Virus record (IMG/VR): IMGVR_UViG_3300027985_001318
Location: 1-64,000 of that record
Reading direction: 5' to 3' (one strand)
Origin: a virus
DNA: 64,000 bases
Positions 20,966 through 59,452 of the stretch are shown piece by piece. Position 1 is the stretch's first letter. Each line of letters begins with the position of its first letter. Below the pieces are notes generated by a model. It did not search any database, had not been told where the DNA came from, and worked only from the letters and a program-made list of their open reading frames with translations. A program made the translations under genes and the position numbers.

Positions 20966-20992
20966 ATCAGTCTCCGATTCAATAAAAAATTA

Positions 20993-21009
20993 CCCCTATA
21001 TCATTTTAG
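20993..21009 (+). promoter_or_regulatory. CCTATA-type promoter motif
   Basis: CCCCTATATCATTTTAG lies 26 nt before the ATG at 21035, in the gap between divergent genes. It shares CCTATA and the downstream TTAG with 8262 and 42873. Confidence 0.5.
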
Positions 21010-21034
21010 TGCAATACACCCATAAGGAACCCCT

Positions 21035-32587: not shown

Positions 32588-34222
32588 ATGGCAAATCGTC
32601 CACCACTTAATCTCTCGATACTGAAACCCACAAAAGAGATGTTGCAGACTTTACGTCCAGTAAAAGTTTCCGATATTTTCGATGGGATGTCCACTAACTT
32701 CCATGAAGATGGGCTTTTCAGTGTCTCTACTTTTGGCCGGGTCGGCTCTGACGAACGAGATAAACGTTTCGGCTTTATCAACATCAAGGTACCGATTTTT
32801 CACCCGCTCCTTTACAAGCGCCTGATGTCATTAAAGGCGCTTTATAGCACTGTTATTTCGGGCAAGAGCTTTGCGAAATGGGACCCGATATCTAACGATC
32901 TGGTACTAGCCAGACCAGATGACGAGGGAGCCGGTACCGGCTTTGGGTTCTTTGTAGAGCACTGGGAGAAGATTCGTTTCCATACTACTCAGTCTCTGCA
33001 GCGACAGATGAAGATCGAAGTTATTGAACGGAATCGTCATAAGGCATTGACCGACAAGATCTTGGTGTTACCTGCTGGCTTGCGAGACATTGAGATCGAT
33101 GCCGATGGTCGGAAAGTCGAGGACGAACTTAACAATCCGTATCGTCGTTTGATAGCCGTTTCTAATACCATACCCGATAGTATTTCTGATTTCAACGCTC
33201 CATTCCTGGACAGTTCCAAGCGTAGCTTGCAAACCTCTTTTGGTTTGGTCTACGAAATGATCAACCAGATCCTTTACGGGAAGAAAGGCTTTATCCAAGC
33301 CAAATGGGCAAGTCGTCGAATCTTCAATGGTACTCGTAACGTTATTAGTACCATGGAAACTGCATCTGAAGTTTTCGATGGGCCGCGAAGTGCTGACTTG
33401 CAAGACACTCAGATTGGTTTGTTGCAGACCATGAAATCCGCATTGCCGGTAGCTGTGCACTGCTTAATGACCGGATGGCTGTCTCAGGTGTTTGGTAACG
33501 CCGATCAGAGCGCGGTGTTGGTTAATCCGAAAACCTGGCACGCCGAATACGTAGATGTGGACGTCGATACTATCGATCGTTGGACTACTGCCGAAGGTCT
33601 CGAGAAAGCTATTGAGCGTTTCAGCGAAACCAAGATCCGTCAAAGACCTCTTCGCATCGATGGGTACTATGTTGGATTGGTTTATGTAGATGAAAAGCAC
33701 TTCAGGATCTTCAACGACATTGATCAGCTTCCGAAACATCTAGATAAAAAGAACGTACATCCGATGACTATGACTGAGTTGATGTATCTGTCAGGTTATC
33801 GGCGCTGGTATGAGCTTTACACTTTCGGTACTCGATTCCCTGTAGCTGAATTAGGTAGTATGTACCCGTCTCGGGTGTATACTCGGACTACAGTCATAGC
33901 CTCTGCTAAAGAAGAGTTGGATGAAAACTGGGAACCGAAGGGCAAAGAATTCGTTGCAAAGGAGTTTCCTGTATCCGATCTCACCGCTCCTTTCATGGAC
34001 TCGCAAGCACCACATCCAAGTAACCTGAAGAACTTACAAGGTGACCACGACGGCGATACAATGTCTTGCGATACCGTCTATATCCAGGAGTCTATCGAGG
34101 AAGTTAAGAACTATCTCAACAGTTTGGCATCGATCATGACGCCGTCTGGTAAAATCTATACTCCGGCCAATACCGACACCATCGAACTGGTGTTGCGTAA
34201 CATATTGAGAACTCCGAAATGA
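32588..34222 (+). CDS. RNA polymerase beta' subunit, N-terminal piece with DxDGD centre (544 aa)
   Basis: The first 80 residues (EDGLFSVSTFGRVG then FGFINIKVPIFHPLLYKRL) match the bacterial beta' N-terminal pattern GLF-IFGP followed by GHIELASPVAH-WF, without the zinc cysteines. Near the end, NLQGDHDGDTMSCD carries Asp486, Asp488 and Asp490. These correspond to the NADFDGD loop that holds the catalytic magnesium. The bridge helix, trigger loop and later parts are absent and must be encoded elsewhere, as in phiKZ-like split polymerases. Position next to the virion giant suggests the virion-packaged polymerase that makes early transcripts. GAGG precedes the ATG; overlaps the beta gene by 4 nt. 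Confidence 0.8.
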   Translation: MANRPPLNLSILKPTKEMLQTLRPVKVSDIFDGMSTNFHEDGLFSVSTFGRVGSDERDKRFGFINIKVPIFHPLLYKRLMSLKALYSTVISGKSFAKWDPISNDLVLARPDDEGAGTGFGFFVEHWEKIRFHTTQSLQRQMKIEVIERNRHKALTDKILVLPAGLRDIEIDADGRKVEDELNNPYRRLIAVSNTIPDSISDFNAPFLDSSKRSLQTSFGLVYEMINQILYGKKGFIQAKWASRRIFNGTRNVISTMETASEVFDGPRSADLQDTQIGLLQTMKSALPVAVHCLMTGWLSQVFGNADQSAVLVNPKTWHAEYVDVDVDTIDRWTTAEGLEKAIERFSETKIRQRPLRIDGYYVGLVYVDEKHFRIFNDIDQLPKHLDKKNVHPMTMTELMYLSGYRRWYELYTFGTRFPVAELGSMYPSRVYTRTTVIASAKEELDENWEPKGKEFVAKEFPVSDLTAPFMDSQAPHPSNLKNLQGDHDGDTMSCDTVYIQESIEEVKNYLNSLASIMTPSGKIYTPANTDTIELVLRNILRTPK

Positions 34223-37200
34223 TTACTTATCAGCAGTTTTATCGTCGTTATGGGGTAAGAAAGCTGGAAGAGTTGTTGGTATTCAAACAGAAACCCCTGC
34301 GTGGGTGTTTGCTACCGAATCGTCCGGTTATTCATTTACTCCCGAGCAATCTACAAGAAACCAAAGTAGACATGAATGACTACTTCATTTCTTCGCAGAA
34401 GGGACTGACTTACTGCATTCATCAAACTGAGCTGAAATCGGAAATTGGTAACCCGGTCAGAAACTCTGTAAACGCTCAGGGTCTTGTACGTCAGCTGGAG
34501 AAAACACAGCGCAGCTTGCGGCGAGTTCGACAATTCGAAACCGTTAATCGCGATCAGCGGGCGGCTTTGATTGTTAACTATTCGCCATTGCAAGCACTCT
34601 ATCGTTATCGAATTAGTTTCCTTACCAGCTGGCAGCGTTGGGCAAATATTTTCGCAACAATGACTGCTAACATCAGCGAGCTCTCCAAAGAGACAGACCG
34701 TCATCACTATCTGCGTTTTGACATTCCTGAGTTTCTCCCTTCTATTTCTGCTCTGCGGATGGGTGCTCGTGGGATGTCTAAAATGGTGGTGGAAACACTC
34801 CGTACACCGGAGGCGTTCTTTTTGCTGGAGTTGTGGAAGTGGTCTATTCGTGAACCTTCTTTGTTTGACGGTTTGCCGAAAGAACATCTCGACAAGTTTA
34901 CTCTGCTGATAGTCGACGGCGATCGTTTTGGTAGCCTCAACTTTGGTCAGTTGTCTGAGTGGCGCGAAGCTGGTACCCGGGTAGATGAAAACGGAGAAGT
35001 GCGTTCAGTAGGTAACTTTTCTCGTCAACTGCTCTATCTGTTCGTACAGTTCGTTAAAGGGCGTACCGCAGATCCAGCAACGAACGATCTCAAAGAGACA
35101 CCAGCAGAAACCAAGGAGCTTGAAGATACGCTCAACCATCTCTCTGGCGACGATGAGAGCGATAACCAAGCCGCAGAAGAAATCATGGAAGAAGATGCTG
35201 AGCAGGCTGAAGAAGATCTCGATAAACTGGTAGAAGAGATCAACGAGCAAGCTAGCGAATTAGATAATGATTTCGATATCGAAGACGATTCTGTTTTCGA
35301 AACAGCCGGGCCGGTAAAGAAGGAAACTAGCAACACCAGTAATGGCGGTAGCCTTGATGTAACAAAGGCTCCGGAGACTGGAGTTCAGCGAAAAGTCGAA
35401 GAACTCAGTAAAACAGGGATTCTTTCGGCGGCTGAACAAAAGCGGTATCATAAGCTATCGGAAACTTACTTGCGGCTACCTAACCCTTACGGAAAGGGTA
35501 CGATTGCCGAAGCGATCGCTTACGACCCGATGGAAACCAAGATAGATCCGGCAGCTACCAGGTTGGAAGATATCGAAGGCGTGCTTGATAAAAGTATGCT
35601 CAACGATACCCTCACTGTGTTTGATGAGGAATATATCACGAAAGTATTGCATCGCGATATACTTCGCTCAGTAATGGCTTTCCAACGCGATGGTACTTCA
35701 ATTACCGACATCAAAGTAACTCGTGTAGTCGATGCCGTAAACAAGTATGATGTTATCACTCTGAGACTTCAACCGGTGAACGGTAAGCCAACCACTCTGA
35801 ACATTAAAGTTCAAGTGATCGAGAAGGACGGTACTTGGGTAGCTGATGGTGTTAACTATCGACTGCGGAAACAACGTCGCGAATACCCCATCGTAAAAAC
35901 GGCTCCGGATCAAGTAGCTCTTTCCAGCTATCTTGGTAAGTTGTTCATTAGTCGTAGCAGTAAGGTAGTACATGACTTTGACCGCTGGATGCAGGCGCAA
36001 ATCATCGGAGCAGTAATGGCTGGTGATAGCCAAATCAGTTCTATCAGCTATCGAGCACATCGCAGTAAAGCAGTTATCCCCCCGCTACCTAGGATTTATA
36101 CTGGGCTAGCCAAGCGTTTTAACGCTTTCACCGCTAACGGTTATCGTGTCTTTATTGACTATGTAAACCGTAATGAGTTCTTTACCGAAAAAGAGCTTTC
36201 AGTGGAACAGGCCAATCCTGGATTGGTATTGTTCGCTAAAGGCGTAGATGCTGGAATCAAGGATCAGTTATTGTTGGTTGACGATAACGGTACGATTTAC
36301 TCTGTCGGTAAGGCCGGTCTTGCGGTTTATGGAGATATCAGCACTTTAACTGGTATTGATCTATCCAAGGCTCCGCTGCAGCAAGACGTGATCAAATTGC
36401 TCGGTAAGAATGTTCCACTCGGGGCAGTAATTTGCTACTACTTTGGTTTGGATCAAGCCATTACCAAACTTGGCGCTAAAGTACGTCGCGTCCAACGTGG
36501 TAGCAAAATAGAATTGGAATCCGATGAATACGCCATTCGATTCCAAGACCAAGTTCTGGTCTTCTCTAAGCAAGACCGTGCCGCCAGTTTGTTGTTTGCT
36601 GGTTTCAACACGTTTGCTAGACAGATCAACTGTTATCCTGTTGCCGAGTACAACAAGAAAGATATCTACCTGAACCTCTTCGAGAGTATCGGGTTAGGTG
36701 TCCGCTATCTTCGTGAGCTCGATCATCTGGATCGTTATTTCATCGATCCCATGACTCTGAAGATTCTTGTTGAACATAACGAACCTACTGACTTTGTTGG
36801 TTTGTTGTTAAAGGCCAATGAGTTGCTGACTACGGATTACGTGGAGAAGAAACGTCGGATGTTGAAGGGCTATGAACGGGTTGCTGCTGCGGTCTATCGC
36901 GAAGTGGCTCAGTCTAGCCGTAACTACAACTCGCGGCCGACGTCTCCCCGCTATGGCGTTGATCTTAAGCCTACGGCGATCTGGCAGGCTATCCAACAGG
37001 ACCCGAGTATCTCTCAGGTACAGAACATCAACCCGATCCACAACCTTAAGGAACAGGAAGCAGTTACTGAAGGCGGTACTGGTGGTCGTAGTAGTCGAAC
37101 TGTGACAGCTGAACATCGGGCTTACGATAAGGACGACTTTGGGGTTATCTCAGAGGCAACTGTCGATAGTTCCGAAGTGGCCATCTCTACTTCCACTTCA

Positions 37201-37365
37201 GCCGATCCAAACTTAATATCTCTGACTGGCGAGACGCGCGAGTTCGATAAAGACAACGATGGGATTGTTTCCATTATGTCTACGTCAGCCAACGCGTCGC
37301 CATGTGCGTTGCACGATGATCAAATTCGGGTCCGGTTGGTGAGTAATTACCAACTGAGCGCTTCT
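34219..37365 (+). CDS. RNA polymerase beta subunit, exon 1 (1049 codons)
   Basis: The first exon begins in an ATGA overlap with the beta' gene. It is a divergent N-terminal beta part with an acidic segment (about 295-390) and two DKDxDG-type loops near its end (YDKDDFGVIS and FDKDNDGIVS). Unspliced, it meets a TAA at 37366-37368 straight after Ser1049. Splicing at 37365/37717 joins ...QLSAS to PKRVNFISIQHSS... without a frame change, giving a 1424-residue beta that continues in the conserved region of exon 2. Assignment comes mainly from exon 2 and gene order; the N-terminal half alone is too divergent to name with certainty. Confidence 0.75.
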
Positions 37366-37716
37366 TAATTGACGGGAACCCAATTGTAATCTAAAGCCTT
37401 GTACACCAACCCAATCAGGGAAACCTATTGGCGGCTGAACTAATCACTCAGGTATGGTAACAGAGACAAGGATGAGGCTATTTGGCCGAAATGGGGAATC
37501 ACGCAGCAAAGCTCCTAAGGTTCTACGGAATACGGAGTGGGTCCAACGACTATGGGAGTTCATCGCCCATACACGAGCAAGTGCCGTGGAAATAGAAGCC
37601 CCCTCTAGTGAGGGTGAAGATATAGTCTGAACATCCAAGGAAAACTTGGAGCAGTCCTTTACTGTCGGGAGACAGCGAGGGGCGGGGTGGCTTAACGACC
37701 CATCCGAACAAAATTG
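37366..37716 (+). ncRNA. Group I self-splicing intron in the beta gene (351 nt, no endonuclease)
   Basis: The start TAATTGA and the following TTGTAATCTA resemble the T4 td intron. Exon end CGCTTCT can pair with internal guide GGGAAC, with the usual U-G pair at the splice site (P1). GAAGATATAGTCTGAAC at about 37616-37632 is the hallmark P7/3' core sequence of phage group IA introns. The intron ends in G at 37716, as required. Splicing restores one reading frame across a stop codon. No endonuclease reading frame lies inside. The exact 3' site is inferred from frame plus the terminal G. Confidence 0.85.
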
Positions 37717-38844
37717 CCTAAACGCGTAAACTTTATCAGCATTCAGCATAGCTCTGGGATTGCTGCGGTCGGTTATCAGCACCAACCGATTCGTACTGGC
37801 TACGATCAGGTCATACCTCAGAGAGTTACCGATCTCTATGCTTTTGCTGCGCGTAAGGCCGGGGTGGTTAAGGAGATATCTTCTACTCACCTTTTGGTCG
37901 AGTACGAAGACGGTGAGTTGGTTGGGGTAGAGTTAGGTCGACGGTTTGGTACAGCTGAAGGTAGCGTGTTCCCGCATCTGGTAGTGAGCGATGCTGTTGT
38001 AGGTCAGTCTTTCAAGCGCGGTCACGTACTAGCTTGGAACGATGGTTGGTTTGTGCGAGATTTCTTCGATGAGACCCAAGTACTTTGGAAGAATGCGTGT
38101 TTGATGAACGTAGCGTTGATGGATGTCCCTGAAACATACGAAGACTCTCATGCTATCTCGAAGAAAGCTTCGGCTAAGATGCTGTCATATGCCACTAAGA
38201 TCAAGACGATACACCTGAAGTTTTCACAGAAGGTTACTCAATTGGTCAGAGAGGGCGAGGACGTTGATGCTGAACAGATTCTTTGCATGATTGAGGATGC
38301 TCTGACTGCCGATAACGGGCTGTTCACAGACGACAACCTAGATGCTCTGAAGATGTTGTCAGCTCAAACGCCGCGTTCTGGAGTTACTGGTAAAGTAGAG
38401 AAAATTGAGGTGCTTTACCGTGGCGACAAGGAAGATATGTCAGAATCTCTGCAGCAAATCTCTGGGTTATATGACAGGAAGCGCGCTCTACAGGTTCGTC
38501 GCCTGCGTAACGAAGGGGCAACCACTGGTCGAGTTTTGGACTCCGTTCGCGTCGATGGTACCATCCTCGAACAAGACAGTGTCGCTATCCGGATTTTCAT
38601 TACCTATCCGGTGGAATTCGGCGTTGCTGATAAGTCGGTGTTTGGTTTGCAGTTGAAGACCGTAAATGGGCAAGTGTTTGAAGGCGAGAACATGACTGAA
38701 GATGGTGAAGAAATTGACGCCAAGTTCAGTAATATGTCTGTCTTTAACCGTATCGTCGACTCAGCTTACCGCATCGGTTGCGGTACTCGAGTTCTATTGG
38801 CTGGATCAAAACTTACTGCGAAGATTTACAGAGGGGAAGTGTAA
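37717..38844 (+). CDS. RNA polymerase beta subunit, exon 2 (375 aa)
   Basis: Starts PKRVNFISIQHSSGIAAVGY and continues HQPIRTGYDQVIP. This parallels bacterial beta [27 protein letters not shown]. Further on, VADKSVFGLQLKTVNGQV and SNMSVFNRIVDSAYRIG parallel the GDK-GRHGNKG and NPLGVPSRMNIGQILE regions of the active-site face. The protein stops before the beta C-terminal clamp, which I place in the gene at 18640-19302. A TTG at 37714 could be misread as a start; the intron boundary explains the missing ribosome site there. Confidence 0.8.
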   Translation, partial: PKRVNFISIQHSSGIAAVGYQHQPIRTGYDQVIPQRVTDLYAFAARKAGVVKEISSTHLLVEYEDGELVGVELGRRFGTAEGSVFPHLVVSDAVVGQSFKRGHVLAWNDGWFVRDFFDETQVLWKNACLMNVALMDVPETYEDSHAISKKASAKMLSYATKIKTIHLKFSQKVTQLVREGEDVDAEQILCMIEDALTADNGLFTDDNLDALKMLSAQTPRSGVTGKVEKIEVLYRGDKEDMSESLQQISGLYDRKRALQVRRLRNEGATTGRVLDSVRVDGTILEQDSVAIRIFITYPVEFGVADKSVFGLQLKTVNGQVFEGENMTEDGEEIDAKFSNMSVFNRIVDSAYRIGCGTRVLLAGSKLTAKIYRGEV

Positions 38845-42823: not shown

Positions 42824-42855
42824 ATAAGAGAGGGCAAGTGCCCTCTCTTATTTTT
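42824..42855 (+). terminator. Rho-independent terminator
   Basis: AATAAGAGAGGGC-AAGT-GCCCTCTCTTATT stem with TTTTT following. Confidence 0.85.
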
Positions 42856-42872
42856 ACGGTTTAAAAATATTT

Positions 42873-42890
42873 GAGACCTATATCCTTTAG
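42873..42890 (+). promoter_or_regulatory. GAGACCTATAT promoter motif (accessory type)
   Basis: GAGACCTATATCCTTTAG, the same pattern as at 47140 and 58962. It follows a terminator, opens the accessory region, and is followed by a leader hairpin at 42905. Confidence 0.6.
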
Positions 42891-42904
42891 GTGATATAAA
42901 TAAC

Positions 42905-42916
42905 CTCGCCTGCGAG
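42905..42916 (+). promoter_or_regulatory. Leader hairpin after promoter motif
   Basis: CTCG-CCTG-CGAG, 4-bp stem, about 25 nt after the TATA core. Weaker than the hairpins at 47178 and 58997 but in the same place. Confidence 0.4.
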
Positions 42917-46109: not shown

Positions 46110-46291
46110 AAGTAGCTTTAGTCGGTAGTTCACTATGTTTTGAAATGGCCCGTGAATTGGCCAGTAAAGGTATCGAAGTCGAAGTGGTTAGTAAGATACC
46201 GACTGAGGTAAGTATCAACGAGTCCCCAGTTAGTAAGTTTAAGCCACAGCATGAATATAATCGTGTTCCCCCACGTAAACTTTCTAAGTGA
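46106..46291 (+). CDS. Small Rossmann-like peptide (61 aa)
   Basis: MKVALVGSSLCFEMARELASKGIEVEVV (given in parts: VALVGSSLC, ARELASKG, IEVEVV) is a beta-alpha-beta unit with a short Gly/Ser loop, like the first third of a nucleotide-binding Rossmann fold. The rest is a basic tail ending PPRKLSK. Too short to be an enzyme alone. ATGA overlap upstream and a 4-nt overlap with a possible GTG start downstream argue that it is a real coupled gene. Confidence 0.6.
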   Translation: MKVALVGSSLCFEMARELASKGIEVEVVSKIPTEVSINESPVSKFKPQHEYNRVPPRKLSK

Positions 46292-46302
46292 GTGATTCTG
46301 CA

Positions 46303-47046
46303 ATGATTGAAAGAGTTGAGATAGGGAGTGTTTATCTTTCTAGTTCCGGGATCAAATTCCGTGTAGATGACGTTAGAAAGCATGGTCAGGATTGTAGTCT
46401 GGCTATGGTCTGTTATACAAACCTGGAGCCCACTAAAGATTCGCCTACTGGAACCGGTTGGGTAATTAGTGAGTCGTTATTTCTTAAGTTGTTTGATGAG
46501 TGTTCTGAACCTGAACGAGTTGTCTTCTTGGACTTCGACGGGGTCTTCACTATTACCTCAGATGGTGTTTTCTGTAAAGATTACGTTAATCGTCGAGCTA
46601 TTAGTCTACTTAACTCAGTTTTCGAGAAAACTAAAGCCAAGATCGTAGTAAGTAGTTCTTGGCGAGTTGGCGAAGATCGCGTAAGGTTGAATGCCTATTT
46701 AGATCTGGCTGGAATTCGAGGTAAATTACACTTGGATTTTAAGACGACGAGCAAAGGAAGTGGTTTTCGTGGCGAACAGGTCAAGGAGTGGCTTTCGAGA
46801 CATCCTGAGGTCGAGCAATACGCCATTGTTGATGACGAAACAGATTTCTTCGACGATCAATTAAAGAACCTTGTTCATGTCGATATGTACGAAGGTTTTG
46901 GTGGTAGGGATTGCGCTCGGCTACTGTCGGTATTTGGTTTGGCTGTAGATAAGGATTCGCTACGTCCTTTTAAGACTAGGGGCGTTGGTGGCGACCTTAA
47001 GCCGTACTATGACGAATATTTGGAAAGTTTAGAAAAGGGCGGTTAG
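46303..47046 (+). CDS. HAD phosphatase of RNA-repair type with DUF1653-like N-domain (247 aa)
   Basis: Residues 1-65 (IGSVYLSSSGIKFRVDDVRK) look like the small DUF1653 beta-barrel. From 72 on is a HAD domain: VFLDFDGVF (Asp77, Asp79), SSSWR (117-121), the RGEQVKEWL helix and IVDDETDFF (Asp177, Asp178). This set matches the HAD family attached to multi-domain RNA repair proteins, where it could remove 2'- or 3'-phosphates. A GTG at 46288 is an alternative start. Last gene of the cassette with the NADAR and CYC/CHR proteins. Confidence 0.7.
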   Translation: MIERVEIGSVYLSSSGIKFRVDDVRKHGQDCSLAMVCYTNLEPTKDSPTGTGWVISESLFLKLFDECSEPERVVFLDFDGVFTITSDGVFCKDYVNRRAISLLNSVFEKTKAKIVVSSSWRVGEDRVRLNAYLDLAGIRGKLHLDFKTTSKGSGFRGEQVKEWLSRHPEVEQYAIVDDETDFFDDQLKNLVHVDMYEGFGGRDCARLLSVFGLAVDKDSLRPFKTRGVGGDLKPYYDEYLESLEKGG

Positions 47047-47109
47047 TCCTTTTCTTTTTTAGGTTTTGTTACCACCAATTGATTTATTCGCCTAAAGCTG
47101 AAAGCAAAG

Positions 47110-47143
47110 GATTCGTTGGAGAGAAATTGAATCCCAACGAATC
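47110..47143 (+). promoter_or_regulatory. Inverted repeat just upstream of promoter motif
   Basis: GATTCGTTGG (47110-47119) pairs with CCAACGAATC (47134-47143). It abuts and overlaps the promoter motif by a few bases, so it could be an operator or the 3' hairpin of the upstream unit. No U-tract. Confidence 0.5.
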
Positions 47144-47160
47144 TCAGACCTATATGTCTA
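47140..47160 (+). promoter_or_regulatory. AATCTCAGACCTATATG promoter motif
   Basis: The 17-nt string AATCTCAGACCTATATG is identical to the one at 58962. It lies 71 nt before the ATG at 47227 and 22 nt before a leader hairpin. Confidence 0.65.
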
Positions 47161-47177
47161 AAGTGGTAATAGAGAAA

Positions 47178-47196
47178 AGAATGGATGGTCCATTCT
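47178..47196 (+). promoter_or_regulatory. Leader stem-loop, TGG loop
   Basis: AGAATGGA-TGG-TCCATTCT, a perfect 8-bp stem, possibly extended by AGAG/CTCT. The hairpin at 58997 has the same loop with different, compensated stem bases. Confidence 0.65.
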
Positions 47197-47226
47197 CTCT
47201 AGCCAATACACTTAGAGAGGTGAGCT

Positions 47227-47478
47227 ATGAATTGGGTAAATATCGATAAGGCCGAAGGCCTGGCTTTGCTGCAAGCTAACGGTTACTGGCTGAAGGGTAC
47301 TTCAGCCAAGCCGCTGAAACGTCTGGAAGGGACCAAGAAAGTGGTCTGGTTTCAGCCGCAGCGGAAGCTGGTGGTCTTGATTGACCATCACCTACCGATC
47401 GGTCATAATGGCCACAACAAGGTTTTGTTGGAGAATTGCAGTTCTCCGGTGTGGGAAGAAATTCAACTGGAGGTTTAA
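47227..47478 (+). CDS. Hypothetical small protein (83 aa)
   Basis: Beta-rich (KVVWFQPQRKLVVLIDHH). GAGAGGTGAG gives a strong ribosome site. First of three small genes behind the promoter at 47140; spacing to the next is 1 nt. No family recognised. Confidence 0.6.
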   Translation: MNWVNIDKAEGLALLQANGYWLKGTSAKPLKRLEGTKKVVWFQPQRKLVVLIDHHLPIGHNGHNKVLLENCSSPVWEEIQLEV

Positions 47479-56705: not shown

Positions 56706-58901
56706 ATGATTCGTTTTTTAGACGACTGGAGACGCTTCCCAACAGCTACCGTCCATTTGGCTACGAAAAACGAGTCTTTTAAACGACTCGCTGCTTTGTA
56801 CAAAAAAATGGGCGTAAAGAATTATTACTTTATCTTGGCGTTGGAAGATCCAGATCTCACTTATGTAGATCCTCATGATAGCGAGAATCTTACTGAAGAC
56901 ATCAAAGAAAAAATTGCTATCGAAGCTAAGTTTAATGTTTGGTATTTTCTTCGAGAAGTTATACGTATACCGCCAGCTACCGGTAACGTACCTGTAAGTT
57001 ATCGGGCAAATAGAGGTAATATCGCGTTAACTTGGGCTTTCGTTACAAACGTAGATATTGCCTTGATTCAGCCACGTCAAACCGGTAAGTCGGTTTCTAC
57101 TGACTCATTGATGATTTGGTTGTTGTTCTTTGGTTTGAACAACACTACTATCTCACTGATCACTAAGGACGATAAACTGCGGGTTGCGAACATCGAGCGT
57201 CTCAAGAAAATCCGTGACCTATTGCCAGCATATCTCTGGGTTCATGATAAACTCGACGCCAATAACCAGACTGAAGTCACCTATCGTTGTTTGTCTAACA
57301 AGTACATTACTTCAGTAGCACAAAACTCGGAAACGGCAGCAAACAACGTAGCTCGTGGTAATACCGTACCTATCACTCACAACGACGAAGGTCCGTTCAT
57401 TAACTTCATCGATCAAACTTTACCAGCGGCCTTGGCGGCAGGTACTGCGGTACGTGAAGAAGCTGAACGGAACGGCACGCCGTATGGGAACATATTCACC
57501 ACCACTGCCGGTAAGAAGGACGACCGTTCCGGTGCCTTTATGTACGACTTGATTCACGGTGGGGCTCCGTGGGATGAGAAGTTCTTCGATGCTGAGAACC
57601 GAGAAGATCTCTGGCGTATTGTTAAGGCTAACTGTCGCAATCGTAAGATGATCATTAACTGCACGATGTCCCATCGGCAACTCGGTTATAGTGACGAATG
57701 GCTCTATGCGGCTATCTCCAACGTTGGTGGTACAGAGGAACAGATCAACCGTGACTTCTTCAACGTTTGGACTAGTGGTTCTGAAGGCTCTCCGCTGAGC
57801 GCTAAACTCAACGAAATCATTGCCAAGTCAGCCATTGCTCCGTTACATCAGGAAATATCAAGCGAAGGCTTTATCACGCGTTGGTATGTTCCGGAGCAGC
57901 ACATCGAAGCCGTGATGAATAGTTCCAAGTTTATCATCGGGCTCGACCCCAGCGAAGCGATAGGTCGAGATGATATCGCTATGGTAGTTATCGATATCCG
58001 GACTATGGGAGTTATTGCATCTGGTGTCTTCAACGATACTACGATTATTAACTTCAGTCACTATCTCGGTAAGTTCATGACTAAGTATAAAAACACCATA
58101 CTGGTTATCGAGCGGAAGTCCACAGGTAGTGCTATCACTGGACATCTTTGCATGATGTTGCCAGAACATGGTATCGATCCATTCCGTCGCATCTATAACC
58201 ACGTAGTCGATAATCAACACGAACGAGTTGAGGATTATCGTGCCGCCTGTAGCGATATGGCTCGTCGCGGAACTTATTTCTACGACCGTTATGTCAAGGA
58301 TTTCGGTTTCGTCACCACCGGTGATCGACGAACCCATCTGTATAGTCAGGTATTGCAAAACGCCGCGAAGAAGTCTGGCCATTTGATCAAGGACAAACTT
58401 CTGATCGGCCAGATTGCTGGCCTGGTTGTTAAGAAAGGGCGTATCGATCACTCTAGCGGCGAACATGACGACTTGGTCATTGCCTGGCTGTTGGCTTGTT
58501 GGTTCCTTACCGATGCTAAACACATCGAACACTACGGTATCGATGTCAGACAGGTCATGGCTATGGTTAGCGAAGAAACTCGTACGCTTACACCTGAGGA
58601 ACTACGTGAACGTGAGGAGCAGAAACTCATTAAGGCAGAAGTAGATAGTCTGCTTGAGAAACTGGCGATCATGAACGACGAACTGATGGTTGCTCGCGTA
58701 GAACATCGCTTGAGATACTTAGTAGATAAGCTGAAATCAAATGACGAGGCTCCTCTGAGTATTTCTGACATGTTGGCGGCAGCGGCCGATAAACGACGGA
58801 TGCGGTTTAAGCTCCGTTCTCTCGATCGCCGTGACCAGCAACGACCAGCTAATCGTTATAGTCTCGGTGCTGACGTACACACCTATCGTATCGCAGCCTA
58901 A
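56706..58901 (+). CDS. terL: Terminase large subunit (731 aa)
   Basis: DNA-packaging motor with ATPase and nuclease halves. Walker A LIQPRQTGKS near residues 118-128 is of the terminase R/Q-x-x-GK-S type. A Walker-B-like ITHNDEGPF sits near 222-230. The nuclease domain shows IIGLDPSEAIGRDD near 410, an IERKSTG strand near 468 and GEHDDLVIAWLLA near 585, giving the acidic metal-binding set of RNase-H-like terminase nucleases. Uninterrupted by intron or intein. The small subunit is not recognisable nearby. GAGGAGG is a strong ribosome site, directly behind a stable hairpin. Confidence 0.9.
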   Translation: MIRFLDDWRRFPTATVHLATKNESFKRLAALYKKMGVKNYYFILALEDPDLTYVDPHDSENLTEDIKEKIAIEAKFNVWYFLREVIRIPPATGNVPVSYRANRGNIALTWAFVTNVDIALIQPRQTGKSVSTDSLMIWLLFFGLNNTTISLITKDDKLRVANIERLKKIRDLLPAYLWVHDKLDANNQTEVTYRCLSNKYITSVAQNSETAANNVARGNTVPITHNDEGPFINFIDQTLPAALAAGTAVREEAERNGTPYGNIFTTTAGKKDDRSGAFMYDLIHGGAPWDEKFFDAENREDLWRIVKANCRNRKMIINCTMSHRQLGYSDEWLYAAISNVGGTEEQINRDFFNVWTSGSEGSPLSAKLNEIIAKSAIAPLHQEISSEGFITRWYVPEQHIEAVMNSSKFIIGLDPSEAIGRDDIAMVVIDIRTMGVIASGVFNDTTIINFSHYLGKFMTKYKNTILVIERKSTGSAITGHLCMMLPEHGIDPFRRIYNHVVDNQHERVEDYRAACSDMARRGTYFYDRYVKDFGFVTTGDRRTHLYSQVLQNAAKKSGHLIKDKLLIGQIAGLVVKKGRIDHSSGEHDDLVIAWLLACWFLTDAKHIEHYGIDVRQVMAMVSEETRTLTPEELREREEQKLIKAEVDSLLEKLAIMNDELMVARVEHRLRYLVDKLKSNDEAPLSISDMLAAAADKRRMRFKLRSLDRRDQQRPANRYSLGADVHTYRIAA

Positions 58902-58935
58902 AAAGAGGAGGGCGAAAGCCCTCCTCTTTTTTTCC
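58901..58935 (+). terminator. Rho-independent terminator after terL
   Basis: AGAGGAGGGC-GAAA-GCCCTCCTCT stem followed by seven or more T. Confidence 0.9.
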
Positions 58936-58961: not shown

Positions 58962-58984
58962 AATCTCAGACCTATATGCCTTAG
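58962..58984 (+). promoter_or_regulatory. AATCTCAGACCTATATG promoter motif
   Basis: Identical 17-nt core to 47140, continuing CCTTAG. Located between the terL terminator and an accessory gene at 59039. Confidence 0.65.
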
Positions 58985-58996
58985 ATGAAGTAAAGG

Positions 58997-59015
58997 GAAA
59001 TAGATGGTCTATTTC
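58997..59015 (+). promoter_or_regulatory. Leader stem-loop, TGG loop
   Basis: GAAATAGA-TGG-TCTATTTC, perfect 8-bp stem plus two possible G-U pairs below. Same loop and position as 47178 with compensated stem changes. Confidence 0.65.
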
Positions 59016-59038
59016 TTACTCTAACTGAGGATACAAAA

Positions 59039-59452
59039 ATGAATATACGTCTTGTTCGTGAGGCATACCTGGTTGCTTCCAGAGACCCGCAATACTTCCT
59101 GCTCGTTAGCATGCTGACAGGAGAGTCAGCGAAGATTTTTAAACACCTCGAGCTGGTAGGGCTAGGGGACAATAGTTGGGATCGGGAGCTCAAACTGCGT
59201 AGAGCAGTAAAAGAGAAAATGGGATTCAGTTGGGATTCCGATGCAGAAAGATTTATCGAAAGGATCCTCTGTCCCAACTTGCTCAACTGGCTCCGTCGAT
59301 GGGCATTTGATAGAACGATCAGTAGTGGTCAGGTCTTCGACCTGACAGGTTTTGAACCCCGCCCTGCAGTACTGATGTCCTCACGCACTGCACATGAAGA
59401 AGCTGCGATTGCTTCTGCTCTGGCCAATTTGCACCGCGCTACTCGCGGTTAG
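59039..59452 (+). CDS. Hypothetical protein (137 aa)
   Basis: Unrecognised helical protein, start MNIRLVREAYLVASRD. ACTGAGGAT gives a ribosome site. First gene behind the promoter at 58962, followed after 9 nt by a second accessory gene. No motif seen. Confidence 0.6.
   Translation: MNIRLVREAYLVASRDPQYFLLVSMLTGESAKIFKHLELVGLGDNSWDRELKLRRAVKEKMGFSWDSDAERFIERILCPNLLNWLRRWAFDRTISSGQVFDLTGFEPRPAVLMSSRTAHEEAAIASALANLHRATRG

Follow-up and report, generated by a model that had tools for sequence, protein, structure and literature searches.

Structured leaders behind a subclass of early-type promoters, and a two-hairpin chimallin leader, predicted in a phiKZ-like jumbo phage

Introduction

Does a promoter-like sequence that recurs in a viral genome form one element with the hairpin that follows it, and what would such an element do? 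The question is raised by IMG/VR record IMGVR_UViG_3300027985_001318 (223,650 bp in total), of which the window, i.e. the whole stretch of 64,000 nt under analysis, comprises bases 1-64000. A first-pass annotation had noted the same sequence before two small genes, a near copy before a third and a hairpin after each, and had proposed a promoter plus leader hairpin that may define one temporal class. Little work has addressed how nucleus-forming phages preserve their first messages and secure efficient translation of them. Here we report a computational analysis of these sites, of their promoter family in the whole record, and of related leaders in other phages.

The window is predicted to encode RNA polymerase (RNAP) beta-type subunits, which match phrog_3148 and phrog_2986 and are in keeping with a virion RNAP, as well as the large terminase and phiKZ-type head proteins; chimallin (PF25677, E 1e-40; phrog_4795 nuclear shell protein) is encoded outside the window. 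On the strength of these genes, the phage is classified from its sequence as a phiKZ-like nucleus-forming jumbo phage. It is distant from every named phage (RNAP beta identity at most about 34%), and neither a megablast search of the region against phages nor a tblastn search with the 83-aa and 137-aa proteins encoded behind the two identical promoters matched anything. One RNAP beta-type subunit gene is interrupted by a group I intron (Rfam RF00028; 37311-37651, + strand), its two parts corresponding to positions 1-1058 (34219-37368) and 1051-1423 (37714-38844) of phrog_3148.

Results

The sequence AATCTCAGACCTATATG is indeed identical at 47140 and 58962, and its AT-rich box, followed by 6 nt and a G at +1, marks it by sequence as a variant of the phiKZ-like early promoter, the type used by virion RNAP. 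According to excerpts of the AR9 paper, the AR9 early promoter reads AAATATATATTAT-6N-G with mapped starts, and transcription in phiKZ and phiR1-37 also starts 6 nt after the box (PMC5312081); the early boxes are TATATTAC in phiKZ, AAACCTACATTAT in EL and TATATTAC...GTG in 201phi2-1 (PMC7058600). The same layout, TATATGTC/TATATGCC-6N-G, was found at 47165 and 58987. Because AR9, phiKZ and phiR1-37 start 6 nt after the box, and with the conserved G as a further guide, the +1 positions are predicted at 47165, 58987 and, for the near copy, 42893. By the same analogy, we infer the exact +1, use of the virion RNAP and early timing for the family promoters.

All features at these loci lie on the + strand. 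At the first, a terminator-like hairpin with a T-run (47031-47055) closes the upstream unit, and the promoter (47140-47164), with the layout CTCAGACC-TATATGTC-6N, is one of six exact copies of CTCAGACCTATATG. The predicted +1 G (47165, 6 nt past the box) is taken into a GGU/GCC pairing of a 5'-terminal leader hairpin (47165-47204; fold p 0.001), and a Shine-Dalgarno-like GAGGTG stretch (47216-47222) lies outside and downstream of this hairpin. The first gene after the promoter is an 83-aa ORF without known family (47227-47478). The gene directly upstream of the promoter (46288-47046) carries a HAD_SAK_2 domain (Pfam PF18143), which is associated with RNA repair. At the second locus, a terminator-like hairpin after the large terminase gene (AAAAAGAGGAGGGC-GAAA-GCCCTCCTCTTTTT; 58900-58931) is followed by another exact CTCAGACCTATATG promoter (58962-58986; +1 predicted at 58987), a 32-nt leader hairpin of the same shape as 47170-47201 (58989-59020) and a 137-aa ORF without known family as first gene (59039-59452). 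The third locus has a terminator-like hairpin (42828-42849) and a promoter of the TTGAGACCTATATC form (42871-42892). Since a terminator-like hairpin precedes each of the three promoters, each probably opens a new unit. The 5' ends predicted (not mapped) at 47165 and 58987 coincide with the beginning of a hairpin or fall shortly before it, and the genome holds further copies, so that neither outcome named in the first-pass annotation as a refutation came about. The hairpins end at 47204 and 59020, ahead of the Shine-Dalgarno stretches and the start codons at 47227 and 59039, and no T-run follows either of them in the sequence.

A weight matrix iterated over the genome yielded about 20 strong sites, and a second derivation gave 26 matches, of which one was discarded; the family is thus put at about 25 sites, six of them exact copies. 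All family sites are on the + strand, and the reversed control gave only weak scores. Within the window by itself, a search allowing mismatches would not have reached significance; the significance comes from the whole-genome search. A weak match at 37849 was dropped because it sits within an RNAP coding exon. The general form of the family is ACCTATAT(T/C/G)(A/C)C-6N-G, with the consensus ACCTATATnAC-6N-G, and the genes behind its promoters include chimallin, an RNAP beta subunit and an NAD-dependent DNA ligase, all of which are early-type genes, and many small ORFs. The proposed single temporal class therefore appears early by promoter type and gene content, but comprises about 25 promoters rather than three.

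The core TCAGACCTATATG has six exact copies in the genome, all on the + strand (reversed control: 0), and the exact CTCAGACCTATATG form occurs at six family sites. The G of TA(T/C)ATG is tied to an upstream TCA(G/C)ACC, the latter being present at 13/13 TA(T/C)ATG sites versus 25/70 other sites (counted in the present phage, IMG/VR phage G007 and Erwinia phage Ea35-70, with a coding match left out). Box and extension of this subclass are also found in Ea35-70, RAY and G007, and are thus common to phages with an identity of only about 30-44% in their RNAP and terminase proteins; no TA(T/C)ATG subclass site was found in phiKZ (about 200 kb examined) or in phage G001. An exact 14-mer scan of IMG/VR returned 98 stretches, mostly chance coding matches, among which only those with RTG at the proper distance and an intergenic context were regarded as promoter-like. 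Two genes behind CTCAGACCTATATG promoters (L008 12622-13032 and L013 17521-17691) both match phrog_8344 (E 3e-35 and 8e-4), which may mean that promoter and gene were duplicated as one.

The first 42 predicted transcript nucleotides of the six CTCAGACCTATATG sites fold better than dinucleotide shuffles (Fisher 2.7e-6; single-site p 0.001, 0.0025, 0.0125, 0.079, 0.085 and 0.15), although three of the leaders (96560, 58987 and 183808) stay above p 0.05 when taken singly. The other 20 family leaders showed no enrichment over dinucleotide shuffles (p 0.2), and TATATG sites fold more strongly than the remaining sites (p 0.0015); folding is also stronger in long leaders than in short ones. When 70 nt of the six leaders are folded, three hairpins include the +1 and a fourth begins at +4, the unpaired 5' nucleotides, counted from the predicted +1, being 0, 0, 0, 3, 5 and 8. 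A further early promoter in the window (20989-21011) has a 24-nt leader without significant hairpin. The near copy at 42873 is a genuine family promoter, but the hairpin ascribed to it did not hold up: the small CTCG-CCTG-CGAG hairpin (42905-42916) is no better than chance, and 67/200 shuffles fold as well as this leader (z -0.4). Two leaders at genome positions 97106 and 152087 (L008 ~13106, L011 ~8087) form GGGC-loop-GCCC hairpins followed by a common TGTGTAAACGAnCTTT and represent a second leader type within the same genome.

The two hairpins around a TGG loop at 47178-47196 and 58997-59015, described by the first-pass annotation as covarying, extend to 47170-47201 and 58989-59020 and consist of 5 bp, a 3-nt 5' bulge, 8 bp and a UGG loop. 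Each of the two forms the full 13 pairs, of which 7 are changed on both sides, which bears out the covariation; shuffled sequences had a mean of 3.5 two-sided changes, none of 500 reached 7, and slid versions reached at most 1. The fully paired 32-nt shape exists at only five places on both strands of the 223,650 bp, two of which are these leaders. Loop and flanks (GATGGTC) and the 3-nt bulge are kept at both sites, while the remaining stem covaries. A covariance model built from the pair (and matching it by construction) gave about 30 weak matches, mostly elsewhere, and also caught two subclass leaders (+1 at 136449, E 0.036, and 183808, E 1.0). The UGG loop with bulge is not present in the other subclass leaders. 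Since the model found no convincing copy in G007, phiKZ or Ea35-70, this hairpin is private to the present phage as far as tested; an Rfam search at the leaders returned no family above gathering score.

Subclass promoters in Erwinia and IMG/VR phages are often followed by a hairpin in which stem letters are altered and pairing is kept, as judged by eye because MAFFT alignments (of paralogous leaders, one related-leader set and chimallin leaders) were too poor for automatic pair counting. RAY record L066 has AAGAGTA-GTGAA-TACTCTT, nearly identical in L067, G007 and Ea35-70, with AGAGC-AATAA-GCTCT as counterpart in L079; similarly, ATCCACT..AGTGGAT in G007 becomes CACTA-GTCC-TAGTG in L175 and CAGT-AGTC-ACTG in Ea35-70. 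Some subclass sites, e.g. G007 70066, lack a hairpin. The assumption that every early leader has one was rejected, and leader hairpins are a property of selected leaders, because there is no enrichment over all early leaders of phiKZ or G007. The proposed unit of promoter and hairpin thus stands for the significant CTCAGACCTATATG subset, but the hairpin does not define the class, since many early leaders, including nearly all of those of phiKZ, are without one.

Of 17 phages examined, 16 have an early-type promoter ahead of the chimallin gene, and a genome scan located one in G007 as well. Compared with shuffles, the first 44 nt of the chimallin leaders fold better (Fisher 2.9e-5), the fold usually beginning at +1 or near it, and in most a second hairpin follows, as in the leaders at genome positions 75918-75993 (L007 11918-11993), L162, L169, L142 and L183-L196. 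In most phages examined the sequence of this second hairpin is perfectly palindromic. The Pseudomonas group has CTTGATCAAG, the present phage has GTCTTTAGCTAAAGAC, and Ea35-70, G007 and Proteus phage 10 have ACATTAGCTAATGT; forms centred on CGCG or TCGA are found in other phages. Of 18 chimallin leaders, 14 contain a palindrome of 10 nt or more, versus 15/113 other early leaders (Fisher 6e-8), a count in which some phages are close relatives and hence not independent, and in which a few palindromes are at other positions. The centres of the chimallin palindromes (GATC, AGCT, CGCG, TCGA) are self-complementary, which is superfluous for an RNA hairpin and could point to an operator or to RNA dimerisation. 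Another perfect palindrome, TTGTTGGCCAACAA, stands shortly after the predicted +1 in the early leaders at Ea35-70 160973 and G007 184217.

Discussion

The explanation ranked first, to which we give about an even chance, is that the 5'-proximal stem-loop shields early mRNAs from decay that depends on the 5' end. Injected virion RNAP would read each site as an early promoter (box, 6 nt, G at +1), and transcription of the CTCAGACCTATATG subclass from +1 would produce an untranslated leader, 52-62 nt long in most cases, whose first ~40 nt would fold into a stem-loop at or near the 5' end and leave the Shine-Dalgarno sequence free downstream. Like the 5' stem-loop of ompA, the hairpin would hide the 5' end from decay of the RppH/RNase E type, and the shielded messages would have a longer life and a higher protein yield. 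A 5'-terminal stem-loop is known to block RppH and 5'-tethered RNase E and to stabilise mRNA (PMC3997798), and shielding fits the present leaders because the hairpin lies at or near +1 and is followed by the stretch with the Shine-Dalgarno sequence. Against it, two of the six leaders are predicted to have 5-8 unpaired 5' nucleotides, which might leave protection incomplete, and the hairpin is absent from most phiKZ early leaders. Moreover, phiKZ has a protein, Dip, that inhibits the degradosome directly (PMC4980113), and an RNA-level shield might be redundant if the present phage has a Dip counterpart.

Next in rank, and tentative, is recognition of the hairpin by an RNA-binding protein of the phage, for instance a translational regulator or a factor resembling ChmC, through which this set of early mRNAs would be marked, exported or regulated. 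Constant loop, flanks and 3-nt bulge amid a covarying stem at 47170 and 58989 are what protein-binding hairpins display, and excerpts of two reviews describe ChmC, encoded by nucleus-forming phages, as a binder of phage mRNA (PMC12908238, PMC13282480); yet the other subclass leaders lack the UGG loop and bulge, loops vary between phages, and three other phages gave no convincing copies. Equally tentative is the idea that nucleus-forming jumbo phages tag certain early mRNAs, most of all that of chimallin, with a conserved structured 5' leader as a dedicated control element, i.e. a +1-proximal hairpin that in chimallin is followed by a palindromic hairpin with self-complementary centre. A phage protein might, for example, recognise this leader and thereby act on stability, dimerisation, autoregulation or the exit of the message from the early infection vesicle. 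A reading without RNA function, in which the hairpins serve as operators at the DNA level or are inverted repeats that arose by chance and remained after duplication of a promoter cassette, is quite unlikely: the upstream ATCCCAAnnAATCTCAG context common to several sites suggests copying, and hairpins are not general among early leaders, but chance leftovers should lose their pairing rather than keep 13/13 pairs with 7 two-sided changes, and the hairpin is retained in subclass leaders of other phages. An operator for one protein should also keep its letters within a genome, and the differing arms therefore disfavour this reading.

We consider it very unlikely that TATATG combines an early virion RNAP promoter with a phiKZ-type late T-3ATG+1, giving transcription throughout infection and making the hairpin secondary. 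The late promoters of phiKZ do require TATG, with G as +1, but TATG alone is insufficient there (PMC4666361); certain AR9 genes with early and late promoters are continuously expressed, as an excerpted review states (PMC7598289), and TA(T/C)ATG is restricted to the TCA(G/C)ACC subclass in three phages, but dual use leaves the covarying hairpins unexplained. A role during transcription, as a promoter-near pause or attenuation signal, is highly improbable: a few early leaders have a hairpin and then a T-run (e.g. 137897 and 169013), but the hairpins behind 47165 and 58987 do not.

Passages on promoters and ChmC in three reviews (PMC7598289, PMC12908238, PMC13282480) mention no leader structures, and for early 5' UTRs the AR9 paper, as excerpted, predicts a motif without naming it (PMC5312081). 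In the literature searched, partly in excerpts, no description of structured subclass leaders or of a two-hairpin chimallin leader was found; an earlier report is possible, and within that scope both appear to be new here. The subclass hairpin and the two-hairpin chimallin leader are short, directly mutable test elements. The latter recurs in phages of Pseudomonas, Erwinia, Proteus and Burkholderia hosts, among others, and the leader elements are candidate targets for antisense knock-down of chimallin.

Among known systems, the ompA-type stabilising stem-loop lies, as is predicted here, at or near the 5' end of an untranslated leader and leaves the ribosome-binding site free, which at 47165 and 58987 is outside the stem-loop; it differs in its unrelated sequence, in that stabilisation is here a prediction, and in the 5-8 unpaired 5' nucleotides predicted for some leaders. 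The virion RNAP promoters of phage N4 contain small hairpins with 3-nt loops, and there the hairpin, upstream of +1, is the promoter itself. A hairpin promoter of this kind was rejected for the present sites, where the hairpin is transcribed, lies downstream of the predicted +1 and is absent at many promoters of the class. With the phiKZ late promoter, which is read by nvRNAP, the subclass shares TATG (47153-47156) in an early-type context, but it has a long conserved context, a conserved G 9 nt further on and early-type genes behind it. The closest likeness in layout is with the early promoters of phiKZ-like phages and AR9, which have an AT-rich box centred near -10, 6 nt and a G at +1, stand before early genes and number about 30 copies per genome, comparable to the family here. 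The subclass differs from them in its CTCAGACC extension and in a TATATG(C/T)C box in place of TATATTAC; the kind of promoter is already known, and the sites reported here add a member to it.
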